This document shows, piece by piece, positions 6,596-43,600 of a DNA stretch of 64,000 nucleotides; position 1 is the first letter of the stretch, and each line of letters opens with the position of its first letter. A program made the position numbers and the translations under genes. The notes under the pieces were generated by a model. It made no database searches and was not told where the DNA came from. It worked only from the letters and a program-made list of their open reading frames with translations. This stretch comes from Owenia fusiformis (Eukaryota; Annelida; Polychaeta; Sabellida; Oweniidae): positions 21,030,931-21,094,930 of the forward strand of contig CAIIXF020000003.1 of assembly GCA_903813345.2 (NCBI GenBank), written 5' to 3'.

Positions 6596-6856
6596 CTAAA
6601 TCGACCGGGCGCCGGTGACTGTTCCACATAGCCGAAAACGAAATACTGAACGATAGACAGGACTTGGCCTATCCTCAAAGAAATTGGCAATTTTTTCTTC
6701 TATTTCTAGTGGAGTACCCTCTTCCCTAGACACATCTAAATCTTCATCATCCACCAGCTCACTAGCATTGTTATTGTCTTTTTCCACCTGTCTTCCCAAG
6801 GCCTTCCTCATATATGGCCCATTGGCCTTATCCCCTCTATCCTTAGCCTTTGGCAT
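6596..6856 (-). other. ORF in tandem unit 1, possible captured exon
   Basis: From the ATG at 6856 there are 86 codons, starting MPKAKDRGDKANGPYMRKAL. A pyrimidine-rich tract and AG lie just upstream (CTCAATTTCAG), so this could be a captured exon. The middle is strongly acidic (ELVDDEDLD) and is followed by EIEEKIANFFEDRP, which loosely resembles the start of a MADF/Myb-SANT-like DNA-binding domain. Past FEDRP it runs into the GC-rich palindrome and loses protein-like character. No promoter or downstream exon is seen. It may be a transposase or host-gene fragment, or chance. Confidence 0.25.
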
Positions 6857-7879
6857 ATTAACTGAAATTGAGACAGTGAACTTTCGTATTAAAATTGTGA
6901 CCCTTGGAAATACTGTACTCACAAAAAACATTCAGAAGATTTTTTAAATAAATGATTTGTAATGGTATATGCATGAGTGAATATACGCATAAAAATGTTG
7001 TTATATGCCGGGTGTTTGTTTGATATAGAACACAGTGTAGAAAGGGGTGTCCAAAGCGAATGGGAGTTGGCACGAGGCCGATTGAAACCCCCCTCTGACC
7101 ATGCCCATGCATCTAGAGTTGTAAATGTGGACAATATCTTTAAAATGGCTCCAAAGGTAAAAGTATTTGGACTATGTCTTTCAAAATGGCCATTAAGACG
7201 TGACCATTAAGACTAACCAATGGCACCTAGTAGAAATAAATGAACATTGAATAAGGTTTAAAGGTGCCAAATATTAGTTCAAATCCATGCTGGATGACTG
7301 TGTTGTTCACATTTGTTTGACTTACATTTTTTGGCTCACCCTGTATACCATAATTATTACTAAAATGGAATAACCAATAATTATAACACTGATGTCAATA
7401 ACATCATTGCAAGTATTTCACCAGTATTTGCATAGTCGCGTGATAAAAAATGTTTAACTGATCTAAATGGAAAATCGACCATTACTTGTCATGAACATGA
7501 ATCACATGTTCTGCCAAGATGTGAATTCAATCCTTACAGTAGTTGCCGCAGACATGAAATTCTGTATTTAAGATGTTACTGTATGTCACTTGATATTTTT
7601 TTTTCTAGGTTGACATAACCGTTCCAAGATCATTAATCAACCACAGAGTACTTTCCATTTGGCAAACCATTTGCCAAAATAAATAATATGTTTTTATTAG
7701 GTGATATCAATCGTCGGTAAAACTGAAAGTAATTATCCACCGGGTGACGATGAGCAAGCGAAACTTGGAACCACAATAGCAAAGGTTTAAAGAAAGTCCA
7801 AAAACTATAATTTGCTACACCTTATGCCTAGGTCTCATAGCGACCGGGCGCCGGCCGATGAGTAGTCATCGGCCGATTT

Positions 7880-8140
7880 CTAAATTGACCGGGCGCCGGT
7901 GACTGTTCCACATAGCCGAAAACGAAATACTGAACGATAGACAGGACTTGGCCTATCCTCAAAGAAATTGGCAATTTTTTCTTCTATTTCTAGTGGAGTA
8001 CCCTCTTCCCTAGACACATCTAAATCTTCATCATCCACCAGCTCACTAGCATTGTTATTGTCTTTTTCCACCTGTCTTCCCAAGGCCTTCCTCATATATG
8101 GCCCATTGGCCTTATCCCCTCTATCCTTAGCCTTTGGCAT
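7880..8140 (-). other. ORF in tandem unit 2, possible captured exon
   Basis: Second copy of the 86-codon ORF. It appears identical at the protein level to copy 1 and has the same acceptor-like CTCAATTTCAG upstream. One nucleotide differs near 7886, in the stop-proximal palindrome. Confidence 0.25.
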
Positions 8141-9163
8141 ATTAACTGAAATTGAGACAGTGAACTTTCGTATTAAAATTGTGACCCTTGGAAATACTGT
8201 ACTCACAAAAAACATTCAGAAGATTTTTTAAATAAATGATTTGTAATGGTATATGCATGAGTGAATATACGCATAAAAATGTTGTTATATGCCGGGTGTT
8301 TGTTTGATATAGAACACAGTGTAGAAAGGGGTGTCCAAAGCGAATGGGAGTTGGCACGAGGCCGATTGAAACCCCCCTCTGACCATGCCCATGCATCTAG
8401 AGTTGTAAATGTGGACAATATCTTTAAAATGGCTCCAAAGGTAAAAGTATTTGGACTATGTCTTTCAAAATGGCCATTAAGACGTGACCATTAAGACTAA
8501 CCAATGGCACCTAGTAGAAATAAATGAACATTGAATAAGGTTTAAAGGTGCCAAATATTAGTTCAAATCCATGCTGGATGACTGTGTTGTTCACATTTGT
8601 TTGACTTACATTTTTTGGCTCACCCTGTATACCATAATTATTACTAAAATGGAATAACCAATAATTATAACACTGATGTCAATAACATCATTGCAAGTAT
8701 TTCACTAGTATTTGCATAGTCGCGTGATAAAAAATGTTTAACTGATCTAAATGGAAAATCGACCATTACTTGTCATGAACATGAATCACCTGTTCTGCCA
8801 AGATGTGAATTCAATCCTTACAGTAGTTGCCGCAGACATGAAATTCTGTATTTAAGATGTTACTGTATGTCACTTGATATTTATTTTCCTAGGTTGACAT
8901 AACCGTTCCAAGATCATTAATCAACCACAGAGTACTTTCCATTTGGCAAACCATTTGCCAAAATAAATAATATGTTTTTATTAGGTGATATCAATCGTCG
9001 GTAAAACTGAAAGTAATTATCCACCGGGTGACGATGAGCAAGCGAAACTTGGAACCACAATAGCAAAGGTTTAAAGAAAGTCCAAAAACTATAATTTGCT
9101 ACACCTTATGCCTAGGTCTCATAGCGACCGGGCGCCGGCCGATGAGTAGTCATCGGCCGATTT

Positions 9164-9424
9164 CTAAATCGACCGGGCGCCGGTGACTGTTCCACATAGC
9201 CGAAAACGAAATACTGAACGATAGACAGGACTTGGCCTATCCTCAAAGAAATTGGCAATTTTTTCTTCTATTTCTAGTGGAGTACCCTCTTCCCTAAACA
9301 CATCTAAATCTTCATCATCCACCAGCTCACTAGCATTGTTATTGTCTTTTTCCACCTGTCTTCCCAAGGCCTTCCTCATATATGGCCCATTGGCCTTATC
9401 CCCTCTATCCTTAGCCTTTGGCAT
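9164..9424 (-). other. ORF in tandem unit 3, possible captured exon
   Basis: Third copy of the 86-codon ORF. One missense change is visible: Ser to Phe in the acidic stretch (DLDVS becomes DLDVF, from a G/A difference near 9297). The open frame is kept in all three copies, but the copies are too young for this to prove selection. Confidence 0.25.
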
Positions 9425-9834
9425 ATTAACTGAAATTGAGACAGTGAACTTTCGTATTAAAATTGTGACCCTTGGAAATACTGTACTCACAAAAAACATT
9501 CAGAAGATTTTTAAAATAAATGATTTGTAATGGTATATGCATGAGTGAATATACGCATAAAAATGTATCACTCTATTCAATGTGTATGACAGACATACAC
9601 GATTAATGTCAATATAAGAACGACTAGATCATCCCACCCGCCCAGCCATTCAAATGTGTGTCATTGTTTTACAGTAAGCCTAATCGTTCCATTTATGTTT
9701 TATAAAAAATCTCTGACAGTGAGTAGTAATTATAATTCCTTACCTCATTATTTCTAAAACCTTTATATCACTTTATAAGTAATCATTATTAAGATTTATC
9801 AACAAATCAGCACGCAAAATCCAAAGATGACCGT

Positions 9835-12220: not shown

Positions 12221-12456
12221 ATGGATATGTACGTGACTTGGATTAAATATACATTTTGTATATTGATGATATATTTGTCAATTGCAGAAAGTTTTTTAAT
12301 AGAGAATATATGGCCACCGGGACATCTTGGCAAGTATGGCTATCACAAAGCCCCGCCGCATACAATCGCAAAGGAGGATGGACGACCAAGATTACAGATT
12401 AATTCTAATATGATAAAAAAGGCGAAGGAAGATGTAAACAAGATATTACCAGGAAA
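12221..12456 (+). CDS. gene 1 exon 1 (signal peptide)
   Basis: The start codon at 12221 is chosen because it gives an immediate signal peptide; cleavage is likely near residues 22-25 (SIAES). The exon ends PGK with donor GTAAGTAT at 12457, leaving phase 2. The mature N-terminus is Pro/Gly/His-rich and then basic, with a Lys-rich stretch and no cysteine. Confidence 0.75.
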
Positions 12457-15400
12457 GTAAGTATCCAGTTTAAAGAGGTAATCAAATAGAAAGCTCTTCG
12501 TTATAGGCTAAATTTAAAAAGGCATTTCGGTTACTTCATTTTTATTTGACGAATAAGATCATTATAAAATCAATCGTACATTGGAAATCTTCAAGAATAC
12601 CTTTCGTACAAAGGTAAGTTCTGAACTAACGACGAAGTTATCTTAAAATTATGCATTTTAGGATACTTAAAGAAAGAAATCCTAATTGAGAATCTTGTTT
12701 CGAAAATCAATCTTTATTATAGATCAATCATTTGTTAATCTTCCGCGATCGGAACGTTGGAATGAGGTGGTTCAAAATGATCTTCATTTCCTTACTTGAC
12801 CCTCTGTGTTATACATTCGATGCATTGATATCTTGGTGCTTTTTACTTCTGTTCATGTCACAATTTTAGAGATGATTGTCATGAATGGGCAATTTTTTTT
12901 ATGAATATATGTTGTGACAAGGAATGTTTTGTTTTGTGCCTTTCGTGAACCTCGCAGATGGCATTTAGATTGGATATTGTTTACAACTTGTTGAGTTCAT
13001 AAATTATCTGCTGTGTAGTGCAATCAGTGAAAGAGCTTCTAGGTATGATATACAAAACAGCGTATAAACCAAATAAATAGCACTGCAGTTGCATTGAAAT
13101 TGTTTAAAACAACTTGATATTTTTAAATGATACCGCAGCAGTGTCGCATAAGCTTCTTAATATACAACTGGGGCTATAATTGTTTTTACAACAGACTTTA
13201 ATACATAGCCATGGTCTTAGGAAGTTGCCAAATTTTTCGAGCAAAATGTTACACTCTAATATTAAGAGAAAGAATAGTGTGATAACCCAATTTATAAAAC
13301 TGAGAGAGCAATTGTCAATTTAATCGAAGTATTTACGAGAGCTCTCGTGGCACTACAAAATACAACCCCGGGAATACAACTAGCCTATGAGTGGGACATT
13401 TAAGTGGTTAGTGGATAAATGGGCAGAGCTCTTAAAATATGGATCGGGTTTGCACCATTCTCGTGACTTCCGGTTCCATAAGCCAGATTTCTAGTGGAAT
13501 TTTCACTGGATTATCTTGTTTCTTACTCAGATTGAGTAACATGATCAATCATGGAGTAACTTTAATACATCTACAACAAGCATTTGTTTGAGTAAAGTCA
13601 TTTTTATAGGGGTCACAATTCTAGGATAAATGACAAGCTTCTTAACTGGCTATCCCAAGTGATGTAATCGTGACTTCTTATCACGATATCGCAATTAGGA
13701 GCTTGGGCAGTTTGAACAGCGCCTTTGCTTTTCTTATGGACTCCATACTTAGTCCTCTTTTGCCTACACCTGGCTTTGAGTGTCATGGATCATAGGTCCA
13801 GTCATATTGCATACAAGTATCAATTTGTCTAAAATGAAATTGTGTTTGTTATCTGAGACTGAATGTCTTCACTTTGGCGTTACGTCGTCATTAAAATGTG
13901 TGTGTAGATTTATGAGGGCATGCCACAAAGAAGTATTACATCTTTTGCCGGTATATAAAGGTGTCCACTGGACTTGTGAATTCTCCATTGATCCATCGAG
14001 TTAAGAGACATAGTCTACCTTTGTAGAAAGCTAAGAAAATTCTCTTCGACACTTGTTTCACAAATTGTGTTAATAATCATTCCAATTGTTGCCTAGTAGC
14101 TTTAATTGGGTTTTTTCCCTAACAGTGCGTCATTTCTTCTGCGTTAATGGTACCACGCATAACGGAGTATTCTAAACCTGCTTGAATTAGCTAAATACAT
14201 GCAGATCTAAAATTTCAATACTTTAACCCTATAAAGTCAAATCTAAAAAATGGTACCGAGATTTTATTCCACAGTTGGAAAGGGCCTCTGTTTTTGCGTC
14301 TGGCGTTTTTGATATGTTTGTCTTTTGGATCAATACTTTTGACTTTGTACCATGCAAAATATGTTTTCTAGAACTTAGAACCACGGTCCATTTTTAGGAA
14401 TAGAGAAATAAGGTGTATCTAATCTTCAATCTAAGGTTAGATTTGAATCCTGGGATTTTTTGGATGATTTTTTAAAAATAAAAAATCTTCAATTTGAAGC
14501 AGGTTGAAAAATGCATATTGGCCAATTTATCAAAGAATTCAAAATGGCCGCCTTTTAATGTAGCCAACATGCCCTGAGCCTTATCAGATATTGGTACTTG
14601 TCTGCATTTGTATCTGTAAAGATTTGAATTTAACGGTATTCCTGGAATTTTGATGATTATAATAATTGATTAATGTGGCAACCGCCCACATATCCGCACG
14701 CCCTCGTGCCCGAACGCCAACGACAATACAGCACTTTTTTGCAATCAAAAGATATGTCGGAAAACTTCCAATAGAGTTTGTTCACGTTGATATGCGGTAA
14801 GCAGCTGTCCCGTTGTATAGCAAAAACAGGTACCCAGCGTTGTAATTATTGTAGTACCGCTTGGTGTTTCTACAAATACCATTGTTTTGTTTAATAAAAT
14901 TTGTTCGCAAGTAAGGAAGCAAATATTGATGAAACACTCAAGTACCACCTGAGGGTAAAGGCGTTCATGGAATAGCGTTATAAAATGCTGGAAATCGATG
15001 TTAATAGGATTATTATATTTATTTTACGTATTTGTTTGGAGATAAATAATAAATTGTTTAAATTATAAGTATAAAGTAGAAATAAATAGGCTATATAATA
15101 TTCACATGAGAAATGACTTGAAGACGATGGACTGCACTTTGTAAAATACAGGATAATTCTTTGGAATTTCCTTGTTTCTGTTTCATTTATACAATAGGCT
15201 ATTTAATTAGCCTACAGTCTCTGGTTAAATAGCTATAGAATGAGAGCGGCAACTTAAGACAAAAGCAGTCCCTCCTCTCCCCTCGCGCACTCTATTAGCT
15301 CGATAAGTACACAGAGTATCTCTCTTTATCACATCTTTAACTATTGATTAACGAATCAATGTATTCTGTACAAGAGATTTATCAATTATTAAGGAGAGTA

Positions 15401-18400
15401 GGTATAATCATCTTTAGCAGAACAACATCAAATGAGAGCTTCAAAGTGAGTTAAACAATTACAAATCAAAATACGGTTCTTATTGCACATATTTGCATTT
15501 TGCCAATTATATAATCATAAATGTTGTTCAACCTTTAGGTGTCTACATCTACAATCGAATAGTTATATGAATTATGGACGATTGATACGTTTAATCCAAT
15601 ACAATTAGTAGTCCAGTTCGGACAAAGTACGAACCAGCCTTGAAATGTCTTAATACCACTGGTGATCCACTCGATTACGCTGGTTACCGAAACGGTTCGT
15701 TTTGGTAACAAAATGTCGGATCGTCGAAGGCACGATTTTTCTTTTTTCCTTAATTCACACGTTGTTGGCAGGATGCCCTCGACATTTTTATCACAAACGT
15801 GTATCAGTATCATATGATTAAGAAAATGTACACATTTGCGAACAAATAGTTCAGAAGACAGCGGAATCGTCGATTTAATTCCTCACTTAAGTTACCGAAA
15901 CGGTATTTCGAAAAACAGTTAAGATCTGCACTTTTAACTCTTACCGTTTATGTAACTTAAGTGAGGAATTAAATCGACGATTCTGCTGTCTTCTGAGCTA
16001 TTTTTCGCAAACATGTACATTGTATAAAACATATGATACTGATACACGTTTGTGAGAAAAAATGTTATGGTTATTCTGCCTACAACGAGCGAAATAAGCA
16101 AAAAAGAAAAATCGTACCTTCGACGTTCCGACATTTTGTTACCAAAACGAACCCAGCGTAATCGAGTGGATCACCAGTGAATACGCGCATATGTACTTTA
16201 AATAATCCTAGGTTTAGACACATAAGCTCAGGAATAAATTTTCACTTGATCATGCTGAATGAATCGAATGTTTTCTATTAGAATACCAAATAAACCCGAA
16301 GAGGGATGATATTAATTGTTCGAGAGAAACAACAAAGAACCTTCAGTATAACCGTAATTTGATTAGAATAGGCAAAATCAAATTAGATTTGATTGAACAA
16401 CTAATGACTGCACTTCTAGGTGTTTACCATAACGGTCAACATCCATAGGGAAGAAATGGAGAATAAATTGGAAACCGAAGATGTTGTCACGCAATAAACC
16501 ACTTGGCTCGTATTAACGAATCACGCATACAAGTTAATCAAATCACCATTACCGAGAATAAGAAAGCTCAATGGGTTACATAAGCCAATAGGTTAAAAAA
16601 TTGACTGATTTATTGTGGAATAATTGAATTGAAATTGAAAAAATGGGGTTACACACAAAGAAACCGAGTGCAACGTGAACTTTTCTTTTTCATATACTTT
16701 CAAGTGCGATATTCATCACCGGGTGCCATGTTTAATTTGTGGATAATATGTTCTACCTATGTCTCATATCGACACTAAATAGGTGCAACCTTGAAATAGC
16801 CTCTTACGAGTAATCTTAATGAAATACATCCGATTCAGTTGGGAATTCGATTGATCTAGACTCAGTATTACATCCTCGGTATTTCAGATACAATGTACGT
16901 TTTTTCCCTTTTTAAATCATTTAGCTCATGATAAGTCATAGAATATTATAGCTACGATAATAAAGGTATCATCTATTTTAAAGGTCACCCTTGCCTTCTC
17001 CAAGAAATAAATATAAAGCTTAAGTGAATTTTTCTCGACTAATCGGAAGCAAGAATGTAGAACTTAGCATTGTTGATTGATATTTTTGGTAAGTTTCGGG
17101 CCTTATATTATAGGCATCCTCATTGTGTTGGAAGCTAGACTATAATCTACGTTTTAAAAAAAACTCTGGTTATCGTAATAATGACACAAGGAACTGTTAT
17201 ATGAGAATTTAAGATACATTCTCATCAATAAGACTGTTAGTCGGCTTTTTGGATTTTGTGTTGAAACCTGTTTGTCAGAATTTACATCTACAAAACAATT
17301 TTTGAAAATTTGAAAACTATAGAATGCAGATATAAATTGAGTTAATAACCAATCGATCTTATTTTGATTTCCTCCCAAAAACGTATTAATTCCTCGTTAC
17401 GTCATGTCGAAAATTGATGGCAAGTTTGAACAACTTTTGAAAATTGGCATTCCTATGACAAAAAAAATATATCCATATCCACTTTTGGAGGAGAGGGTAT
17501 TGAAGCAATGTTAACCCTTTATCAAACCTTCCATGGAAGTATCAACTGCATCGCCAGAGCAGGCTTATATATTATATCCTGGGTATTTTTGTGACTTACG
17601 CTAATGTGGACGTCGAAATGTCTTCTTAATTGAACAGTTTGATGATGTTGTAATGGATTTAAGACAGATAACGACAGACTTAAATAACAAAAGTCACATA
17701 ACATTGACGTATACGATCCAATGTCCAAATGACACGCTTTGAAATTGTGAAAGCCAGAGACCAAATTGCCAATTAGCTTTACATTGGTTCATCCTGATTT
17801 ATTACGAAACGAGAGTGCTTCTGCAACACTGATTTGATTCGTAATGTCAATTTAACGTTTCCCACATTAACAGAACGATGGGGATTGTCTTATTTGGATG
17901 GCATTAGACAAAATTGATGAGCTAGAAATCAGCTAATGGAATCGGACAAAATAACGCTAAGACGTTGCAATATTTGAACAAGCGCATAATCGTATCAACT
18001 CAAGACGATAAATTCTGATTTTGCATATCTGTTGCATCTTAGTTCCGCTCATTATATATGCATTTGTTATTAGGTATTGCGTATCCAACGGAGAGATGTA
18101 TTCATTGAGCCCACCTTTAATAACTCTATGGAGTAATTACGAATGTTCATTTTCTGAATACCATATATAAATGGTGTAATATTATGTCGTCTAGGAATGA
18201 CAAAATATGTTACCACCGGCACATCTTTTGTTTTAACAGCCAATCTTTCTTTTTTCTCATGGACGAGAATAATCAGCGCTTGAAGAGAGAATGTCGCTTG
18301 ATTTAGCACCTTCAGGCCAAGCGAGAAAATTAAATTTCCGGGGAGCACTGTATCCTTGATGGCAAACCGATAGTTTGGGAAGCGTTCAATGTTAGTGCGA

Positions 18401-21400
18401 GTTTTATGTCCATTACTAGAAGTTTAAAAGTAATGTGTTATATCCCTGTGGACCCCGATTATATGGATGTTGAACTGCAGTAGAACATTGTTTAGGGCAT
18501 CTTAGGTACATAGTGAGTTCCATTTGGCTCATTGGGACGAACTTTATTATCAACTACGGAAATTAAGCTAATTTGTTCCCAATTCTGGAACCTAGTAGTT
18601 CTGTCGAGCGTATGTTGTATACCCACGTCTCGGGCCAGGCACTAAAAGCTTTAATTCCCAAGATGTAGTTCTAGATGACAGGGTTAATTTGCTTCATGTA
18701 TATAAACCATAACACATTTGTTTCAAGAGGGTGATCAGTCATCCGACCTTTAATCACATTGAATTTTTTCGAGGCATATACCTGTAGAAAACACGTCGAG
18801 ATTTCTTTTTATACAATTAAAGTGTATTTAATTAAATTTGTATACATACACTTTAATTTAATTTAATTGATTTATTGCGCGATTTGAGTGCCCACTTTAA
18901 TTTTATACACTTTAATTTAATTTGTAATTTATTGCATAATTTAAGTGCCCAATTTAATTTTATACAATTTAATTTAATTTGTAATTTATTGCATAATTTG
19001 AGTGCCCAATTTAATTTCATACACTTTAATTTAATTTGTAATTTATTGCATACTTTTAGTTCTCAATTGTTAACAGCATAAGATGAAAGACTGTAAGTGG
19101 AAATCAACGTCTCCCGGCAAGAGGTTGGGGCAATCACGAAGAAATTGGGACCTATTTCTGACATTTTGGCCCCCAAATCTGAAAATATAGGCTCAATTCC
19201 TTAAAAATAGGCAAACCAAATAAAATAATGCATGCCCAGTAATGCTAATTTGTTACCTAAATTGCCAGATTTTGGACACTAAATTTTTGGGCCCACCAAG
19301 GAGAAGGGCAGACACCAGATAAGCAACTTATAGTATTTACTAAAGTACCAAAAATTAATATCAAATCAAATGAAGACTCCTCAAGAGATCTGTTACTTGT
19401 ATGCGTAATTATTCCTCGTTGTTTCTTGCAGGTCATCACAAGATGAAGCTCATCCAACTCAATCAGCACACGAATCAACGACCACTAAAATAAAACAGCA
19501 GATCAAGGGCACGGTTGTGAAATCACCAAATGACGTCATTACAAAATCCCCCTTTAAGAAGCTTGTCAATATTGACATTAACAATGATACGGCTGATAGC
19601 CCAAATAGCCAACATGTCAAGCTTCAATATCTGTACTATGACTTGGATAGAGTGAATATCTCAAACGATAAAAATTTACCGGATGACGGTGTTAATTCAG
19701 TGGCCACTTTAAGCAAATGTGACCTCCACGTGTTCAAGCATTGTGGTACTGATGTTATGGCAACCCTCACATCGGGCAACATCTGTATCTCTCTAAAGGT
19801 AATATATTCCGTCATAAATTATGCATGAAAGAAAATAATTAAGTCAACCAAATCCCAAGTGCCAAACTACAAGATCAGAACTATTCCTAGAGGTAGGCTA
19901 TATCGACCGCCGAGAAAAATCAGACTCTATTGAAAGATGGTGGGAGAAAAGGTGTCAAAAGTGTTTCTTCTCTTTGTAGGTTTCATCATGGTTTGGGAGA
20001 GTAATGATTCATTTTCTTTGTAAAGTAACGCCGGGAGTAACGCTCTCTTCAAATTGCTTTGCATACTTTTTGTTTTGTAATACCTTTCGATAGTTTTCCA
20101 TTTTGGCACTTGTGTTTTCTTTTATTCGCCAAATGTTTTAAATCTATTAAGAAATACTTAAAACCAAATGTAGATGAACCCCTATTTTAATGATCAAGCT
20201 TCTCAAAAATGATTTTTTAACTTTTTGACTAAGTCGATCATTTAAAAAAGTAATACAGGGTGTCCGGAAAGTAAAGATACAAATACTCTAATTCTAAGAG
20301 ATTTAGTTTTTTTGTAATGAAATCGCTACAGATTGTAGAGGAACTACATTACAATACATCTTCCAACGTTTATAACATATAGTCTAAATTTGTTAAAGCT
20401 ACGGTTGTCATGGTAACGGTGGTGAGGGGTATGCGGAGCAGTTCCAGGATATCGCTAAATTGTGATAAGTTGCTAAAATATAACCATTTGAAATAGTGTT
20501 TATTATTGTATTTCTTATCAGTTTTTTGTTTTGTTCAATATTGTATTATTGCTGTCATAGTATTCTCTTTAGTATAACGGTATCATTGATACATATCAGA
20601 ACTATATAATGTCACAAGTATAATCAAAGAAAAAGAGTATATAAGTGCTTAGAAAAGGGGTCCCTGGATTAATAGAAAAGTCAATAGTGCACCTCCACAG
20701 TCAGTGCTCCAATGCACAAACCAAAGAAAACAAATCTTACAGTTGAATGTCTGGACATTAACCTTTTTGTACAATGGCCCATATTTCCCTGATAATGTCC
20801 CGTTGGACTTCTACATTAATGAATATGTTAGAGCAATATTTGTGAGAAGTTCAACATAAAAATGAGACTCGGCTGAAACCCAATGTTATCTGCAATCTTA
20901 GAGACTGACAGCAAAGGTTTTGTCAGATCTTTTAATCTCCGGTCAAAATGCACCCAGAATGTTTAGATAAAGGTGGAAAATACAAAATACTGGATAACAG
21001 TAGTACTGTCAAATTATTAAATAATGTTACAGTACTAATCCTTTTGCTGTTGTGCTACATAATTTGATGCATAATAGCAAGTGTCAAGATGATATGAACA
21101 GGAGAAAAGAATTACAAAACATAATTGTGACACTGCTCCACATACCCGTGACTCCTGTTACCATAACAACCATAACTTTTTTATTTTGAAACAATTTGTC
21201 ATGACAGTTGCAGGATAAATTGTTACAATATCATTCTACAATCTGTAGCAATTTCATCTCACAACAGGTAAATCTAATGAAATTAGAGCATTTGTATCTT
21301 TACTTTCCGGACACCCTGTATGTACTATCGCCTATACCGTCCGTCATGTACACATTGTTAGAAACAATAAGGAAATTAGTATATTTTCCCCAAATATTCA

Positions 21401-23273
21401 AAACAATATCTTCTCAAACAATCAACATACAAAAACATTTCCAACTAAATTGATCAGCGCTTGTTTTCAAATCTGCTGACAGAATACTCACCCCCCCCCC
21501 CCCCATTAAAATGCCATTATTTTTATGACACTATTGTGAGAAAAATAGTCGTCCAAATAGTGAGATAATACATAGAAACATCATATTGATTTAATACAAT
21601 CGATGCTTATAAGTAAGGATATCAAGAAATATTGGTTATTATCGGCTTTATATCTGTCAACAGATCATAGTTCATGTATCATAAAAACCAAATCAAGAAA
21701 GGGCATTAATATTTGACATGAAATCTCAACATAAATGGCGCTAACTGACAGCTGATGTGATAACATTCTAGATAATAAAAGGTTTTATTTTCAGGCTTTC
21801 ACCACGTGTGTTAATATGCAGGGAACGAGCTGTCATAGAAATTCTGTGTTGAGAGCAAGACAAATGATGCCCAAAATAGACACATTTTTCTCAGAGGAAG
21901 GAACATGTGAGGGACACCCATCGGATGAATATACTGCGAAAAGTACGGGTATATACCTTTATTCTTTATTATGTCTCTTGCATCAGGTTTAATCGGTACT
22001 AACCAAGATGGTGAGAATTTTGAATTCTCGATTTAGGCCCGATTTCAACTTTTTAGCCTTTTGAGATCTGAACTCTTAACAATGGAAAGGAGTGCAATTT
22101 TTACCAAAATATCCAATCCAATATTCTGACGGCCATATCTTACATTTTGGTACATTGAGCACTGAAACTCGCTACAGCAAACATAGAAATGTCATGAGAA
22201 ACCGACTTTTATAAACTTTGCCACCTGATGCCTTGGTCATATTTGCTCCGATTTTCACTACGGCGCCCGGCCGATTGAGTATTTTGTTCCAAACAATACA
22301 ATTTTGAACAAAACACTCAATCGGCCGGGCGCCGGCCGACGAATCGGAGCAAATTTGTCCCAAGCTTAAACTCTTAAATTACACCTGATTTGGGTCAAAA
22401 CTCGATATTTGAGGCTAAGTTTGAGCCGTTTTGATTTACGTCGATCTCACTGTTGTCATTGGTTGTTTTGTCATTTACTGGATTCTGATTGACTTTTCGA
22501 AATTTTCAAAAATGAACCTAATTTAATAATGGTGGCATATTTTAGCTTATTATTGAAATAACCAAACTGTGCCAAAAATGAAAGATTAGTCTGCATTTGG
22601 TTCAAAAGTCAATGCGATATCTGACCTGGGAGTCGGGCGGCTAGTACAGTACAATAAATAGCTGGCTCATTATCGCATTAATGCACTGATCCAGCAATCA
22701 TTAACACTAATGGATGATCTGTAATATCATTTGGGATTTTAATGCTACCTTATCATGGCTATATCAGAGTAAATAATGCCAGATCAAAAAGACCTGGCAC
22801 AAAGGACTGTTTGGAAAAAATATGCCAGAATAGATAGTGTTCCCTCGCCGGATATTAAAGCTCCCATAATTCTATCGATTGCCATGCCTATCGGAAAAAA
22901 TACAATCACTGAACAATACCGTACTTGAAAGAGAATAAAGAGAATTTTAAATGTAATGCATCATTTCTTAGAGTAATATTAATTTATCTATTAGTGAGTT
23001 GTCTGGAATTTGTTGTTTGTCGTTAACTTAATTAATTGATGAATTTCTATTTCAGGAATGTCTAAATGTGGATCGGGCGTTCATCTATGCGTGAAAAGAT
23101 TCATAAAGCACGTAAAGGGTTCTGGGAGCTACTGCCTTCCCATATTACATCTGAGAAAATGTACAAGGCGACATCTATCACACTGTGAGGAATCAGATAA
23201 ACAACTGATCAAACTGGGAGTTGAAACATTTTACAAAACATACAAGCATTTCACTCCGGGTCAAACATGTTAA
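12221..23273 (+). CDS. predicted secreted protein with two six-cysteine modules
   Basis: Four exons: 12221-12456, 19432-19798, 21795-21948 and 23056-23273. All splice sites are GT-AG and the phases join cleanly to give 324 residues. Residues 1-24 form a signal peptide (charged start, hydrophobic core FCILMIYLSIA). Residues 80-170 are hydrophilic and Ser/Thr/Asn-rich, with sequons NDT and NIS. Twelve cysteines follow, in two modules: C175, C183, C197, C206, C214, C239 and C257, C264, C279, C288, C296, C324. Spacing is nearly the same in both, and the last cysteine is the C-terminal residue. Module 1 is split between exons 2 and 3; module 2 is a single exon. I do not recognise the family. The pattern recalls helical cysteine-rich extracellular domains such as nematode DUF19/T20D4.11-like proteins, but that is only a guess. 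The role is unknown. Confidence 0.75.
12457..15656 (+). other. gene 1 intron 1, first part
   Basis: Intron 1 as a whole is 12457-19431. This part is AT-rich with no supported exon. A diverged piece related to the 59452-60095 repeat is visible near 14440-14520 (CAATTTGAAGCAGGTTGAAA). A minus-strand ORF near 14745-14948 has no recognisable motif. Confidence 0.5.
15657..16179. mobile_element. 523-bp fold-back DNA transposon
   Basis: A near-palindrome with two arms of about 235 bp, meeting near 15890-15955. Its ends are CACTGGTGATCCACTCGATT and the mirror image ending GGATCACCAGTG. It is flanked by a perfect 5-bp target-site duplication AATAC (15652-15656 and 16180-16184), which marks it as a genuine insertion. 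It has no coding capacity, so a source transposase must act in trans. A single arm is present at 10905-11145. It lies inside gene 1 intron 1. Confidence 0.88.
16180..18834 (+). other. gene 1 intron 1, middle part
   Basis: AT-rich intronic sequence. I see no exon, RNA gene or clear repeat here. Short minus-strand ORFs (for example 17522-17764 and 18070-18348) lack motifs and supporting splice sites. Confidence 0.45.
18835..19066. repeat. 57-bp minisatellite
   Basis: About 3.6 copies of a 57-bp unit; the GTGCCC block recurs at 18888, 18945 and 19002. The rest of the unit is built from TTTAATTTAATTTGTAATTTATTGCATAAT. Because 57 is a multiple of three, one frame stays open through the repeats, producing a false ORF at 18875-19081. 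Confidence 0.88.
19432..19798 (+). CDS. gene 1 exon 2 (linker and first three cysteines)
   Basis: The acceptor is TTTCTTGCAG and the donor is GTAATATATT, ending in phase 0. It encodes the polar linker (residues 80-174) and then KCDLHVFKHC and GNICISLK, which hold C175, C183 and C197. Sequons NDT and NIS suggest N-glycosylation. Confidence 0.72.
20256..21318. mobile_element. 1063-bp mariner-type element
   Basis: The ends are CAGGGTGTCCGGAAAGTAAA and its mirror TTTACTTTCCGGACACCCTG, flanked by TA target duplications (20254-20255 and 21319-21320). The terminal inverted repeats are imperfect and extend about 200 bp, including GGGGTATGCGGAGCAG against CTGCTCCACATACCC. The interior near 20740-20960 matches, in opposite orientation, the interior of the 60684-61685 copy and looks like transposase relic without an open frame. 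It lies in gene 1 intron 2. Confidence 0.85.
21795..21948 (+). CDS. gene 1 exon 3 (completes module 1)
   Basis: The acceptor is TTTATTTTCAG and the donor is GTATATACC, phase 1. It encodes AFTTCVNMQGTSC and EEGTCEG, contributing C206, C214 and C239 of the first six-cysteine module, with a basic amphipathic stretch (RARQMMPKIDTFF) between. Confidence 0.72.
22213..22363. mobile_element. GC-rich palindromic MITE, copy 2
   Basis: The left arm CTTGGTCATATTTGCTCCGA leads to CGGCGCCCGGCCGATTGAGT. The right arm is the mirror (ACTCAATCGGCCGGGCGCCG), then ATCGGAGCAAATTTGTCCCA. The loop holds an inner pairing of TTTTGTTC with GAACAAAA. It belongs to the same family as 5355-5502 and lies in gene 1 intron 3. 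Confidence 0.8.
23056..23273 (+). CDS. gene 1 exon 4 (module 2 and stop)
   Basis: The acceptor is CTATTTCAG. It encodes GMSKCGSGVHLCVKRF, then YCLPILHLRKC and HLSHCEESD, and ends GQTC plus stop TAA. This one exon holds the whole second module (C257, C264, C279, C288, C296, C324) and is rich in Lys, Arg and His. Confidence 0.75.
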
Positions 23274-23657: not shown

Positions 23658-25156
23658 TACTTGGGTCAGTCAAAAAGTTCTGTTTATTTATCTCTAACTT
23701 TGTCATTTTGAGGAATTATTTCTTGATATTTGGTACATCTATAGAACATACATTTGTGCAAATATTGACTAAACATTTTATCTCAACTATCATTGGTTAC
23801 TGAATAACGGTTGCTATGGTAACAGAAGGGCGATGTACTCGGTTCAACCCAATTTTATTGATTTTCATACACTGTTATATTACATGAAATATACTTTAAA
23901 CTGTCTCAATATTTAAAAACTCCTTTCTAACTAAGTCCCCGATGTCATATCTAAGTTTAATTTAGTTATTTAGCCTTCAAAATAGTCGCCTCCTGCAGCA
24001 ATGACCTTTCGGTGCCTTTCTACCCAATCTCTGAAGACCCCTTTGAAACCGCCAGCCGACAATTCATTTTAACGTTTGCGCACCGCTGCCCGCAGAGCCT
24101 CATCGGAATCAAACCGGATCCCCCGAAGACCCCTCTTTAGATTGCTGAAGAGGTAAAAGTCACATGGAGATGTGTCTGGGGAGTATGGTGCTTGTGGAAT
24201 CCTGCTCCATTGGAGGTCTTCTAAGGCAGTCTTGGTAACATTACTTGTATGGGGACGAGCTTCTTTGTGGCATTCACATTCATCAAGAAACTGCCTCGAG
24301 ACATCAATTCTTTCTTGCCTCTGTTCTTGAGTGAGGAATCTTGGAACCCATTTTGAGGCTACGTAACGCTTTTTCAATACTTTAGTGATGATCGTATGAC
24401 AAGAGCCATGAGAAATATTCAGAATAGAACTAGTCTCATCCAGTGAAATGTGCTTATCTTGCTCAATCAACTCTTGTATTTTCTCAGCATTGTCCTCATT
24501 CACAGAACTTTCGGGCCGGCCAGTCCGTGCTGAATCAGACAGTTTATCCCTTTTCCAGACAAGAAGTCATTGAACCATCTACAGACATTATTATATCTTG
24601 GAGCATCCTGTCCAAAGCACCTTTAACAAGTGAATATGTCTCTTGCAGTCTTTTCCTGTTTTCTACCATACACTGTATCAAGTTTCTTTGCTTCCACTTT
24701 AACAAATTGCTAGGCGAATCAATATTTGACATGACTTTTTCTCAAAATCCCTTTTTCACTTTTTCATCTTTTCATCCTGAAAATCATTTGTGTCAGCTGA
24801 AAACTGTCACAATTGAATATATCCTTGACTGTGATTTCATCAAGACAATGGAATTGGAATCAAAACCTGTCAATTTGCAAAATCTGATATTTTAACATGA
24901 AAAACTGTTCAATGATTTGATGCCAAATGAAATTAATGTGACATTATTAAAAATATGACGTTTTTAGCTGAACCGTGTACCCGTAATTCTGTTACCATAG
25001 CAACCATAATTCAATAACCAATCATAGTTGAGATACAATATTTAGCCATTAGTTGCACAAATATATGTTCTATATATGTACCAAATATCAAGAAGTAAAT
25101 CCTCAAAATGACAAAGTTAGAGATAAATAAACAGAACTTTTTGACTGACCCAAGTA
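23658..25156 (-). mobile_element. defective mariner/Tc1-family transposon
   Basis: This 1499-bp element has long inverted repeats of about 170 bp, starting TACTTGGGTCAGTCAAAAAG, and TA target duplications at 23656-23657 and 25157-25158. It carries a decayed transposase on the minus strand. It is inserted inside another MITE (23617-25385). The transposase is internally deleted and frameshifted, so the element cannot move itself. Confidence 0.9.
24069..24790 (-). pseudogene. mariner transposase pseudogene
   Basis: The 24503-24069 frame shows a helix-turn-helix segment (LDETSSILNISHGSCHTIIT), then WVPRFLTQEQRQER, and after an abrupt join EARPHT and PYSPDTSPCDFYLFSNL, hallmarks of mariner/SETMAR-like transposases. 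Roughly 100 residues that normally lie between the WVPR block and the ARPH block are missing; these contain the first catalytic Asp, and the residue before ARPH is Glu instead of the usual Asn of DNARPH. Upstream, 24504-24790 holds a frameshifted N-terminal part (RTGRPESSVNE is still readable). It is non-functional. Confidence 0.85.
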
Positions 25157-40608: not shown

Positions 40609-43600
40609 CTAAAAATGTATCAAACAAAAGTTTTTAATTTGATTAAAATCAAGAGGTAAAAGCTTTAAATATAATTTGAAACATTATAATAATATCGCTT
40701 TCTAAAATGTTGGAGTCGATAAGCAAAGATGTGGGTTATTTCGAATTCGAAACTATATTTACCAGCGACAGCCTTTGCCCAATCGTCACTAGCTCCAGCT
40801 GCAGCGTCTGGAAGACGAATAAGTCAAAATATTTAGAACATGCAAAGGCTCTAATGATCACTCAAATTAGATATTTATTGAGACGTTCACGAAAACGAAC
40901 TATTCAAGATGGCCGAAACAGGAAGTACGTACACGTGTTTTTACGATATTTTGTCCATCAAGGTTTATGTCTTCCGTTTCAATTTTGTTATTAACATCTA
41001 TCATTTATAATCACTTTGGTAATAGGAAAAGAAACATATTGAAATAGTTATTTTAGCCTTCTGAAAATATCATAGAAAATATACATTTTTTATTTCACAG
41101 ATACATCACTAATATACTAATATTCTAATTCCCAAAGAAAATGAGCTTTAACATTTTGAATTCTTTAAAAATTGACAAAATATTTTTAAGTTTTAAGGAA
41201 TGCGCTTTTCCTTATTTTGGCTGCCATTTTTGTCTGAGGCAATTTTTCTGAAATATATGATTTGTGCAATTTTCAGAAATTTTAGATTTGCGGTTTTCAC
41301 TTACTTTTCCATCTTCATTCGACAATGCGCTATAAAACTTAAGTTTCTATTTTACACACACATCTATTTAATACAAGAAATGGCTTGTTAGGGAGTTTCA
41401 ATATTTCAATTTCAATATACTGCAACTTACATAATACACGTGTGGAGGATCCAACAGTAAAACTTCGTCCGTTTACTCCTCTTATACCAGCAGCTCCCTC
41501 GTTTCCAACATATTCCTAAAGCATGAAATGAGATTAGTATTTGTGTAGTGTCCAAATCCTACTTTCCAACCTAATTTGTAACCATTGATTCAACTTCGTG
41601 TAATAGATACTTAAGGGATCCAGTCGTCAGTGACATTATCAGTGTCCCTCTTTGTAAAGTTTAAAAGGATGGTTTATGATACTATTTTAAGGAATTTATA
41701 AAATGTGGAATGTGGGGGTACTCACTGCTGCCCATGCCACTGCATACATTTCATAAGGAAAGATATGAATAGTCTTGCTTCAAGACCCTGGACCTCCCCC
41801 CCCCCCCCTATCTACTATACCCTTGTGTTGTGTTGGAGAAGTAGATAAGGGGGCCCACACTCCACAGAAAGACTAAGATATGAAGAAAAACAATACTCCG
41901 ATTGAGGAACTTACCAAATCATTGTAATCTGATGGAAGATCCTCTGTATAACCCCAAGGTGTGAGAATATATTGACCATAGGCGTGGATTGATATATACA
42001 TGTTTAGACTACTAGATTTGCTCAACATGAAATCCTTCATAGCTGTAGTCTCGGGCTCAGAGAAGGCTATTGACCCAGCATATGTATCTGAACATGGATT
42101 GGAACTGGCACCCGTCACTACAAAGTAAAACAATGGCCCGTCGTGAGAGCTAAAAGGATGGGCCTAAGTATAGATTCATAAACTTAAGGGATGATTTTGT
42201 GACTTCCTTTTGGCATTTATACTTAAGATCGTGTACTACATCATCACGTATCGCATACACGGATACACCTATAATGGTCATTTCCTTTTAAAACACCGTT
42301 AAAGTGCTTTAAAATGCAATAAGAGACACGTACATGTAGGTTGGTGCAGCCGATTTCAGAGGGTTTATATAAGTTGTTAGATAACTGATGACGAAAACAA
42401 ATACAAAGCTCATTTCAATTATAGCCTGATATGAAGTCGAGGTAAATAATTTGTAAAGAAACATGTTACAGGAAAGCACAATGGAATACGTACACATCCA
42501 CTTGTAGTCCCAGTTGCGGTTAGGATCTGCCCCGAAGCATGAGGAGCCAGAGTTTCGACTGCGAGTTTTTCTCCATAGCCTATCCTGTGAGAAAATATCA
42601 GTCGTTTAATGTGCAAACAAGCAATTCATAAGCAATAAATGTACACCGTGAATGAAACACTTTTACTGGGATACTTTTATCAAAAGTAGCGGTCAATAGT
42701 ACATAGAAGCGGTCAACAGTACAATCATATTGTTGACCGCCCATCAACCAATCAGAATTGAGTATTTTCGGTCAACAGTACTTTCAAAGTCTACAGTATC
42801 GGTATACAATTTTGCCAGTTGACCTCAAATGAGGTCTACAATTGTATACTGTACATGTATGTTGTACTATAGGCAATGTTATATCCTACGAGTGATCAGT
42901 TTTAGGATGAAAAGATGATTGTATTACTCTAAATTAGTCCTATGAGAAAAACTAATAGTATTTAAATCTTTGTTATGTTTTCTATGGAAAAAATTATTTC
43001 AATCGAATATAAAATAATAGTTAAAAGCCTGAAGCCAGTTGAATTCATTTGTAAACACTACTTACATAAACGTAGGAATATTCGTAACCATCTGGATTGG
43101 AACTTGGAAGAATGTACCAGTCAAAAGCATCTACCAGAGACCTAACAGTGCTATCACTGTTGTAGCTGTTGACAAGCTGGAAAGAGATGATATTACACAT
43201 TTACCAGCTCGCTACTACATTCACAAGCTAGCGCTGGAAGAGAAATATTATACAATTACCAGAGCTCAAAAGTTGCTATAACTATAGCGTCATAACTGCT
43301 TCATTATTCGTTTGTAATGAATTCCCTTATTGGAATATTTGTGTAAAATTTACAAATAAAATATCTAAATTACAAATACATGTCTTATGTATCAAATAGA
43401 CAAATGGGTCCTAAAATCGGGTGCATTTTATGTTTGTAAGGACTAGAAATATTATTTATAACTAAAAATCAATTTTTATTCGCCAACTACAGCTTATAAT
43501 CCTTAAATTTTAAAAAGTTGCCTGTTATTTTATCGAAGAAATGTATTTTTACGAATAATAATCTTGCATGTTATCCATGAATGATTGTAGAAAGCAGACA

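Follow-up and report, generated by a model that had tools for sequence, protein, structure and literature searches.

The gene and its predicted product

A four-exon gene whose predicted product contains two modules of six cysteines each was examined in a 64,000-nucleotide stretch of the Owenia fusiformis genome (contig CAIIXF020000003.1, positions 21,030,931 to 21,094,930 of the forward strand), referred to in its full length as the window, and its possible kinship with the N-domain of the RGM proteins is considered below. A preliminary description of this DNA had proposed four exons joining in frame, a signal peptide, two six-cysteine blocks of defined spacing, and one module split by an intron with the other in a single exon; all of these features were recovered. 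The exons, in window coordinates, are as follows.

Exon 1, 12221..12456, + strand: start codon, hydrophobic leader (residues 1 to ~24) and linker, with a phase-2 donor; placed by splice signals and frame and by hydropathy
Exon 2, 19432..19798, + strand: linker with the two N-glycosylation sequons of the protein (residues 130 and 154), then cysteines 1-3 of module 1 (first cysteine codon at 19718)
Exon 3, 21795..21948, + strand: cysteines 4-6 of module 1 (last cysteine codon ends at 21908) and the inter-module linker, with a phase-1 donor
Exon 4, 23056..23273, + strand: the entire module 2 (first cysteine codon at 23067, sixth cysteine codon ends at 23270) and the stop codon TAA

Joined as they presumably are in life, the exons give 324 codons followed by TAA, in frame throughout. 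All three introns have GT-AG boundaries, and the intron phases calculated from the exon lengths are 2, 0 and 1. The intron between exons 1 and 2 spans 7 kb, and the exon 2 donor, in phase 0, lies four residues past the third cysteine of module 1. Thirteen cysteines are present in the protein, 12 in the two modules and one within the leader, whose hydropathy peaks at 2.62 over residues 12-21. The cysteine spacing is 7, 13, 8, 7, 24 in module 1 and 6, 14, 8, 7, 27 in module 2, both modules having the frame C3-x8-C4-x7-C5. The stop comes right after the last cysteine, with no hydrophobic stretch following it, and the leader suggests that the protein is probably secreted. The reading frames of all exons are free of stops and 12/12 module cysteines are present; judged from the sequence, the gene appears real and probably working.

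By length, exon 2 is the one exon that stands out: frames of the lengths of exons 1 to 4 respectively are open at 82/7468, 4/7449, 366/7479 and 115/7470 of the positions sampled elsewhere in the window, in one given frame. Matching the DNA to a pattern that covers some of the cysteine frame was uninformative, with three matches in the window, none of them in the exons of the gene, and at least that many in 16/100 shuffles. Between window positions 9001 and 19420, exon 1 was the sole candidate above the thresholds that combines an ATG, a hydrophobic leader and a phase-2 donor (with two nested ATGs).

Sister genes and the probable link to RGM_N

Pfam and NCBIfam searches of the entire window protein gave nothing above cut-off. 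The RGM_N domain (PF06535; cut-off 24.2 bits) was matched at E 0.52 by the whole protein and at E 0.088 (13.5 bits) by module 1 alone, all below cut-off, and RGM_C had no match in the protein at E <= 10. A PB1 match in exon 2 (E 0.0099), also below cut-off, was taken as chance. Against its own 498-Mb genome the protein found itself alone, plus one 26% match at E 9.8; three other own-genome matches, L027, L028 and L031, were read and lack the six-cysteine frame. Profile searches, which the preliminary description had recommended, identified nothing over a Pfam cut-off in the window protein itself, but the weak RGM_N match led to four sister genes.

When the genome was searched with RGM_N, nine matches were returned at E <= 10, among them six-cysteine modules at C12 (E 1.66) and at C5, 19.05 Mb (E 2.79), both below cut-off. 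The C12 module led on to C5, C7 and C6, and the C7 module recovers the same four. The sisters are independent of the window gene as query, because they were found through RGM_N. Conserved exons upstream of the four second modules were revealed by DNA comparison. The sisters, named below after the first part of their coordinates, are listed with the basis on which each was recognised.

C12:36.458-36.462 Mb: RGM_N search, conserved exons
C5:19.050-19.057 Mb: RGM_N search, conserved exons
C7:14.804-14.807 Mb: C12 module search, conserved exons
C6:13.694-13.704 Mb: C12 module search, conserved exons

The second module of C12 has cysteine spacing 7, 14, 8, 7, 24; the scan for the cysteine frame demanded x8 and x7, so that its rows are no independent proof of that spacing. 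The sisters, like the window gene, have a stop soon after the last cysteine.

The window gene follows the intron plan of its sisters, with a phase-2 intron upstream, a phase-0 intron at the fourth residue past cysteine 3 of module 1 and a phase-1 intron before module 2. C12, C5 and C7 each carry one exon with cysteines 1-3 and another with cysteines 4-6 of the first module, and the intron between them, in phase 0 after the fourth residue past cysteine 3, agrees to the base with its window-gene counterpart in 3/3 cases. The same three sisters have a phase-1 intron ahead of a single-exon module 2, placed a few codons further upstream of its first cysteine than in the window gene. The junctions between exons 2 and 3 and between exons 3 and 4 thus have independent support from sister introns that agree with them in phase, the former also in its exact distance from the third cysteine.

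Upstream of the modules the genes differ. An EF-hand-like exon precedes the modules in 4/4 sisters, and EF-hand_7 was matched in assembled C12 at 1.5e-8, over cut-off, and in C7 at 4.2e-6, just under it; from exon order and phase, this exon would be part of the same gene. The EF-hand exons of C12 and C7 start in phase 2, like exon 2 of the window gene. In its place the window gene has a linker without a detectable EF-hand and, unlike the sisters, no intron between the linker and module 1. Pfam detected no EF-hand pair on exon 2 and 58/120 shuffles scored as well, by which a decayed EF-hand in this exon was ruled out. C6 and C7 have leader exons that are 81% identical and end in phase-2 donors; the leader-exon scan described above is not sensitive, because it missed the leader exon of C7. 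In the C6 sister (L052, C6:13694380-13700300) cysteines 1 and 2 are missing from the first-module exon, which may mark a shortened or decaying copy.

Sequence similarity between the window modules and the sisters was assessed with shuffles in which the cysteines were fixed in place and the other residues shuffled. A hidden Markov model (HMM) of seven sister modules, leaving out module 1 of C6 with its missing cysteines, gave 27.2 bits for window module 1 (0/2000 shuffles as good) and 13.3 bits for module 2 (9/2000). In hhalign comparisons with the set of sister second modules, 0/100 shuffles of module 1 and 1/100 of module 2 did as well, and for the pair of modules 0/200; a further test of module 2 against this set gave 1/120. 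In a cysteine-registered pairwise test against the four sister second modules, 30 to 61 of 3000 shuffles equalled module 1 and 0 to 32 of 3000 equalled module 2.

The preliminary description had also argued for a tandem domain duplication. That the gene holds two modules of one kind is upheld, but the duplication is not private to it, being common to three sisters. Duplication is not shown inside the window gene by sequence beyond the spacing, because modules 1 and 2 resemble each other at shuffle level (63/200 and 387/3000 as good); it is the first-module and second-module sets of the sisters that are alike (0/120).

Assembled C12 (2.9e-8, 34.3 bits) and C5 (6.8e-7, 29.9 bits) pass the RGM_N cut-off, while C7 (0.018, 15.7 bits) fails; in all three it is the first module, unused in finding them, that matches RGM_N best. 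Second modules taken alone are under the cut-off (C12 0.0013, C5 0.00094) or without a match (C7 and C6). No RGM_N match was found among ten cysteine-fixed shuffles (five of window module 1, five of the C12 module). The sister HMM scored RGMB at 22.0 bits (0/2000) and RGMA at 17.8 bits (3/2000), and the second-module set against RGM surpassed all 200 column shuffles (0/200 as good). A part-length hemojuvelin row was included in the hhalign tests against RGM and left out of the cysteine-registered and sister-HMM tests.

The genome's own RGM, on C10, has RGM_N (E 3.9e-13) and RGM_C (2.9e-28) in the same frame; the flanks of this gene (L060 and L061) did not enter the comparisons. Its N-domain, with cysteine spacing 4, 25, 8, 7, 21, occupies a single exon that follows a phase-1 intron, which is also the arrangement of window module 2, and the window modules share its six cysteines and inner x8 and x7 gaps. 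They differ from it in lying below the RGM_N cut-off, in standing in tandem without RGM_C, and in their C1-C2 gaps (7 and 6, compared with 4). A further locus, L033 (C7:37614816), has an RGM_N match over cut-off (25.3 bits) with two stops in frame; it perhaps spans exon edges or is a broken copy, and was not used.

As to placement and layout, we consider it probable that the product of the window gene is secreted, diverged and built around two RGM-N-like modules, and that the gene is the fifth member of a small RGM_N-related family. The preliminary description knew no named family with this spacing and thought that it may be a lineage-specific domain; the idea of an unknown family did not hold, given that C3-x8-C4-x7-C5 is the RGM_N frame and that two of the three assembled sisters pass the RGM_N cut-off. 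By its family placement the protein is a divergent relative of a known domain and not of an unknown kind.

Predicted fold, proposed binding face and competing explanations

Module 2, modelled from one sequence, is predicted to form three helices (residues 4-23, 27-41 and 46-64), with a predicted local distance difference test score of 73.1 and a predicted template modelling score of 0.58; the five models ranged from 73.1 down to 37.7. According to PMC7354924, RGM N-domains consist of three helices with three disulfides. Among the 41 chains compared with VIA-align, RGMB N-domains account for three of 35 rows (Z 6.0, 5.6 and 5.4; best root-mean-square deviation 2.9, with 62 aligned of 70), and the predicted fold agrees with RGM N-domain architecture but does not decide the matter. 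RAMP2 came first (Z 7.5). The RAMP ectodomain is a helical bundle of similar length, but no sequence match to it was found, the window protein has no hydrophobic stretch past its last cysteine, and Z values of this size are common for helical bundles and below the telling level according to the tool. The three internal disulfides per module envisaged by the preliminary description are likely by analogy with RGM N-domains (PMC7354924); the pairing itself we infer.

The RGM N-domain binds BMPs, and RGM needs it both for enhancing BMP2 signalling and for inhibiting that of GDF5, as set out in PMC7354924. There, GDF5 is bound at its fingers, with two RGM N-domains to each ligand dimer; Gly101, Leu103 and His106 of RGMB, in the helix 2-3 linker and at the start of helix 3, hold GDF5, and changes at these places impair effects on BMP2 and GDF5. 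Counted from cysteine 5, the equivalent positions are G, I, H in the genome's own RGM, R, S, R in window module 1 and E, D, L in module 2, and none of the seven sister modules keeps them. RGM-like BMP binding by the window protein is unlikely, because both modules have other residues at these contact positions. The soluble protein would consist of a leader, followed by a long linker and a tandem pair of RGM-N-like modules; in each module, three disulfides most likely hold together a bundle of three helices. The two bundles could serve as rigid binding heads for a presumed extracellular partner, as the RGM N-domain does for BMPs, and would bind through a changed face, the gripping residues of RGM being absent from both modules. 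This two-headed mechanism, taken on its own, is put forward tentatively.

Several observations weigh against the placement in the RGM_N-related family. Module 2 has no RGM_N match in Pfam, and the whole protein is under the RGM_N cut-off. Compared directly with RGM, module 2 scores at shuffle level (94/200; 671 to 2173 of 3000), module 1 is suggestive at best (16/100; 44, 79 and 97 of 3000 when cysteine-registered) and the pair gives 8/200. The link from sisters to RGM is itself uneven: the genome's own RGM scores weakly on the sister HMM (10.6 bits, 36/2000), and while the C12 module was equalled by 0 of 3000 shuffles against RGMA, 2 against RGMB and 129 against the own RGM, the C7 module was equalled by 238 to 602. 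Because it was the resemblance of second modules to RGM_N that first singled out the sisters, the RGM scores on the HMM are partly selected. Against the sister first modules, window module 1 is weak (6/120) and module 2 at chance (85/120), and the joint twin region (0/120) aligned best with the sister second modules, at an hhalign probability of 6%. A Foldseek search of the PDB with the module 2 model gave no good match (best E 2.6), and in the fold match RGMB is on a par with unrelated bundles, namely RAMP2 and, at Z of about 4 to 6, MIT and 14-3-3 rows. To these may be added the altered BMP face. In the gene model itself the weak points are the exon-3 donor of 0.46 bits (5.29 and 3.95 for the other two donors) and exon 1, which lies beyond a 7-kb intron and was placed by signals and phase.

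The shortfall of both window modules against RGM_N, the scores against RGM (at shuffle level for module 2, suggestive at best for module 1) and the absent BMP-gripping residues would suit an independent, lineage-specific helical cysteine domain that shares spacing with RGM_N in a gene unrelated to RGM, and small helical bundles with the same cysteine frame could converge. This explanation is nevertheless unlikely, as two of the sisters that share the intron sites are over the RGM_N cut-off, with their best stretch in a module unused for finding them, RGMB and RGMA are recognised by the sister HMM on more than the cysteine frame, and the sister second-module set surpasses every column shuffle against RGM. 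A soluble BMP/GDF binder working like RGM, with two heads per dimeric ligand, is suggested by the presence of two modules and a leader in one chain and by the two N-domains bound per GDF5 dimer; we regard it as very unlikely, since G, I, H of the own RGM are replaced in both modules at places where changes impair RGMB. A wrong gene model, or a decaying copy, might be indicated by the weak exon-3 donor, the lack of an EF-hand in exon 2 by Pfam and the absence of a close relative in the whole-protein genome search, yet the exons have no stops, the 12 module cysteines are all present and the intron sites are common to the sisters, which makes this highly improbable.

The 26% match at E 9.8 in the own-genome search was the first encounter with a separate set of six-cysteine modules, of spacing 7, 21, 8, 7, 22, and these are tandem repeats at C5:38.43-38.46 Mb with Thr-rich linkers. 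That the window modules belong with these mucin-like repeats is quite unlikely, although part of the evidence is in favour. Two modules (T1 and T2) of the 31 matches represented the repeat family in the tests; window module 1 surpassed 100/100 cysteine-fixed shuffles against the T profile and was equalled by 2/3000 against T1, and module 2 by 1/3000 against T2. On the other hand, module 2 against the T profile was at chance (50/100), the pair gave 10/200, module 1 against T2 gave 1978/3000, and T1 and T2 scored weakly on the sister HMM (7.9 and 4.8 bits; 82/2000 and 301/2000). A module-1 intron shared with the repeat family was ruled out, the repeat intron lying one residue past cysteine 3 in phase 2 (read in L022-L024), as opposed to four residues past it in phase 0 in the window gene.

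On a bolder reading, the RGM N-type bundle might be an older free-standing module, used in a soluble twin-head family, some members with EF-hands, that lacks the RGM C-domain; the window member would have exchanged the BMP face for a new ligand, and RGM would be one fusion product. This broader scenario is unlikely. In this one genome, an RGM-type head turns up apart from RGM and in tandem, in some genes together with EF-hands and in another without them. Among the papers listed in searches of the literature around RGM N-domains, none dealt, judging by title and opening of the abstract, with such domains outside RGM, which is no proof of absence. Should the arrangement hold in other animals, it would offer a handle on the origin of the RGM head and on what else it may bind. 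Shared intron sites together with sister genes can place a protein that is below every profile cut-off tried.

Other features of the genome and the window

The C5 repeats form a run of exons at C5:38434559-38458971 (L005-L018 and L020-L025), with one copy at C1:60299608 (L019), in which Thr/Pro-rich linkers accompany the six-cysteine modules. The repeat module has 31 genome matches at E <= 10, of which 29 are at the C5 run and 13 are at 97-100% identity. No Pfam match over cut-off was found in the three frames of the run that were scanned, and from its sequence the run looks like a mucin-like repeat protein. A sequence search of the PDB gave nothing meaningful for the repeat module, nor for the window protein or its modules. 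Elsewhere in the genome, Pfam Eryth_link_C, the linker domain of annelid erythrocruorin, was matched three times over cut-off, which suits an annelid; PF14830, used to probe for a mollusc origin, had no match in the genome or in the controls.

Besides the gene described, the window contains the following features.

24072-24566, - strand, just downstream of the gene: what we take to be a mariner-like transposase remnant, with at most a weak helix-turn-helix match in Pfam
41876-42605, - strand: M14 zinc carboxypeptidase exons (Pfam 1.8e-19 and 1.4e-9)
6596-9499, - strand: a 1284-bp tandem repeat in three copies, each with a near-identical frame of 111 amino acids
30117-33263: three 133-bp tandem pairs at intervals of ~1.44 kb, the first and second each followed by an ATCCT-rich run

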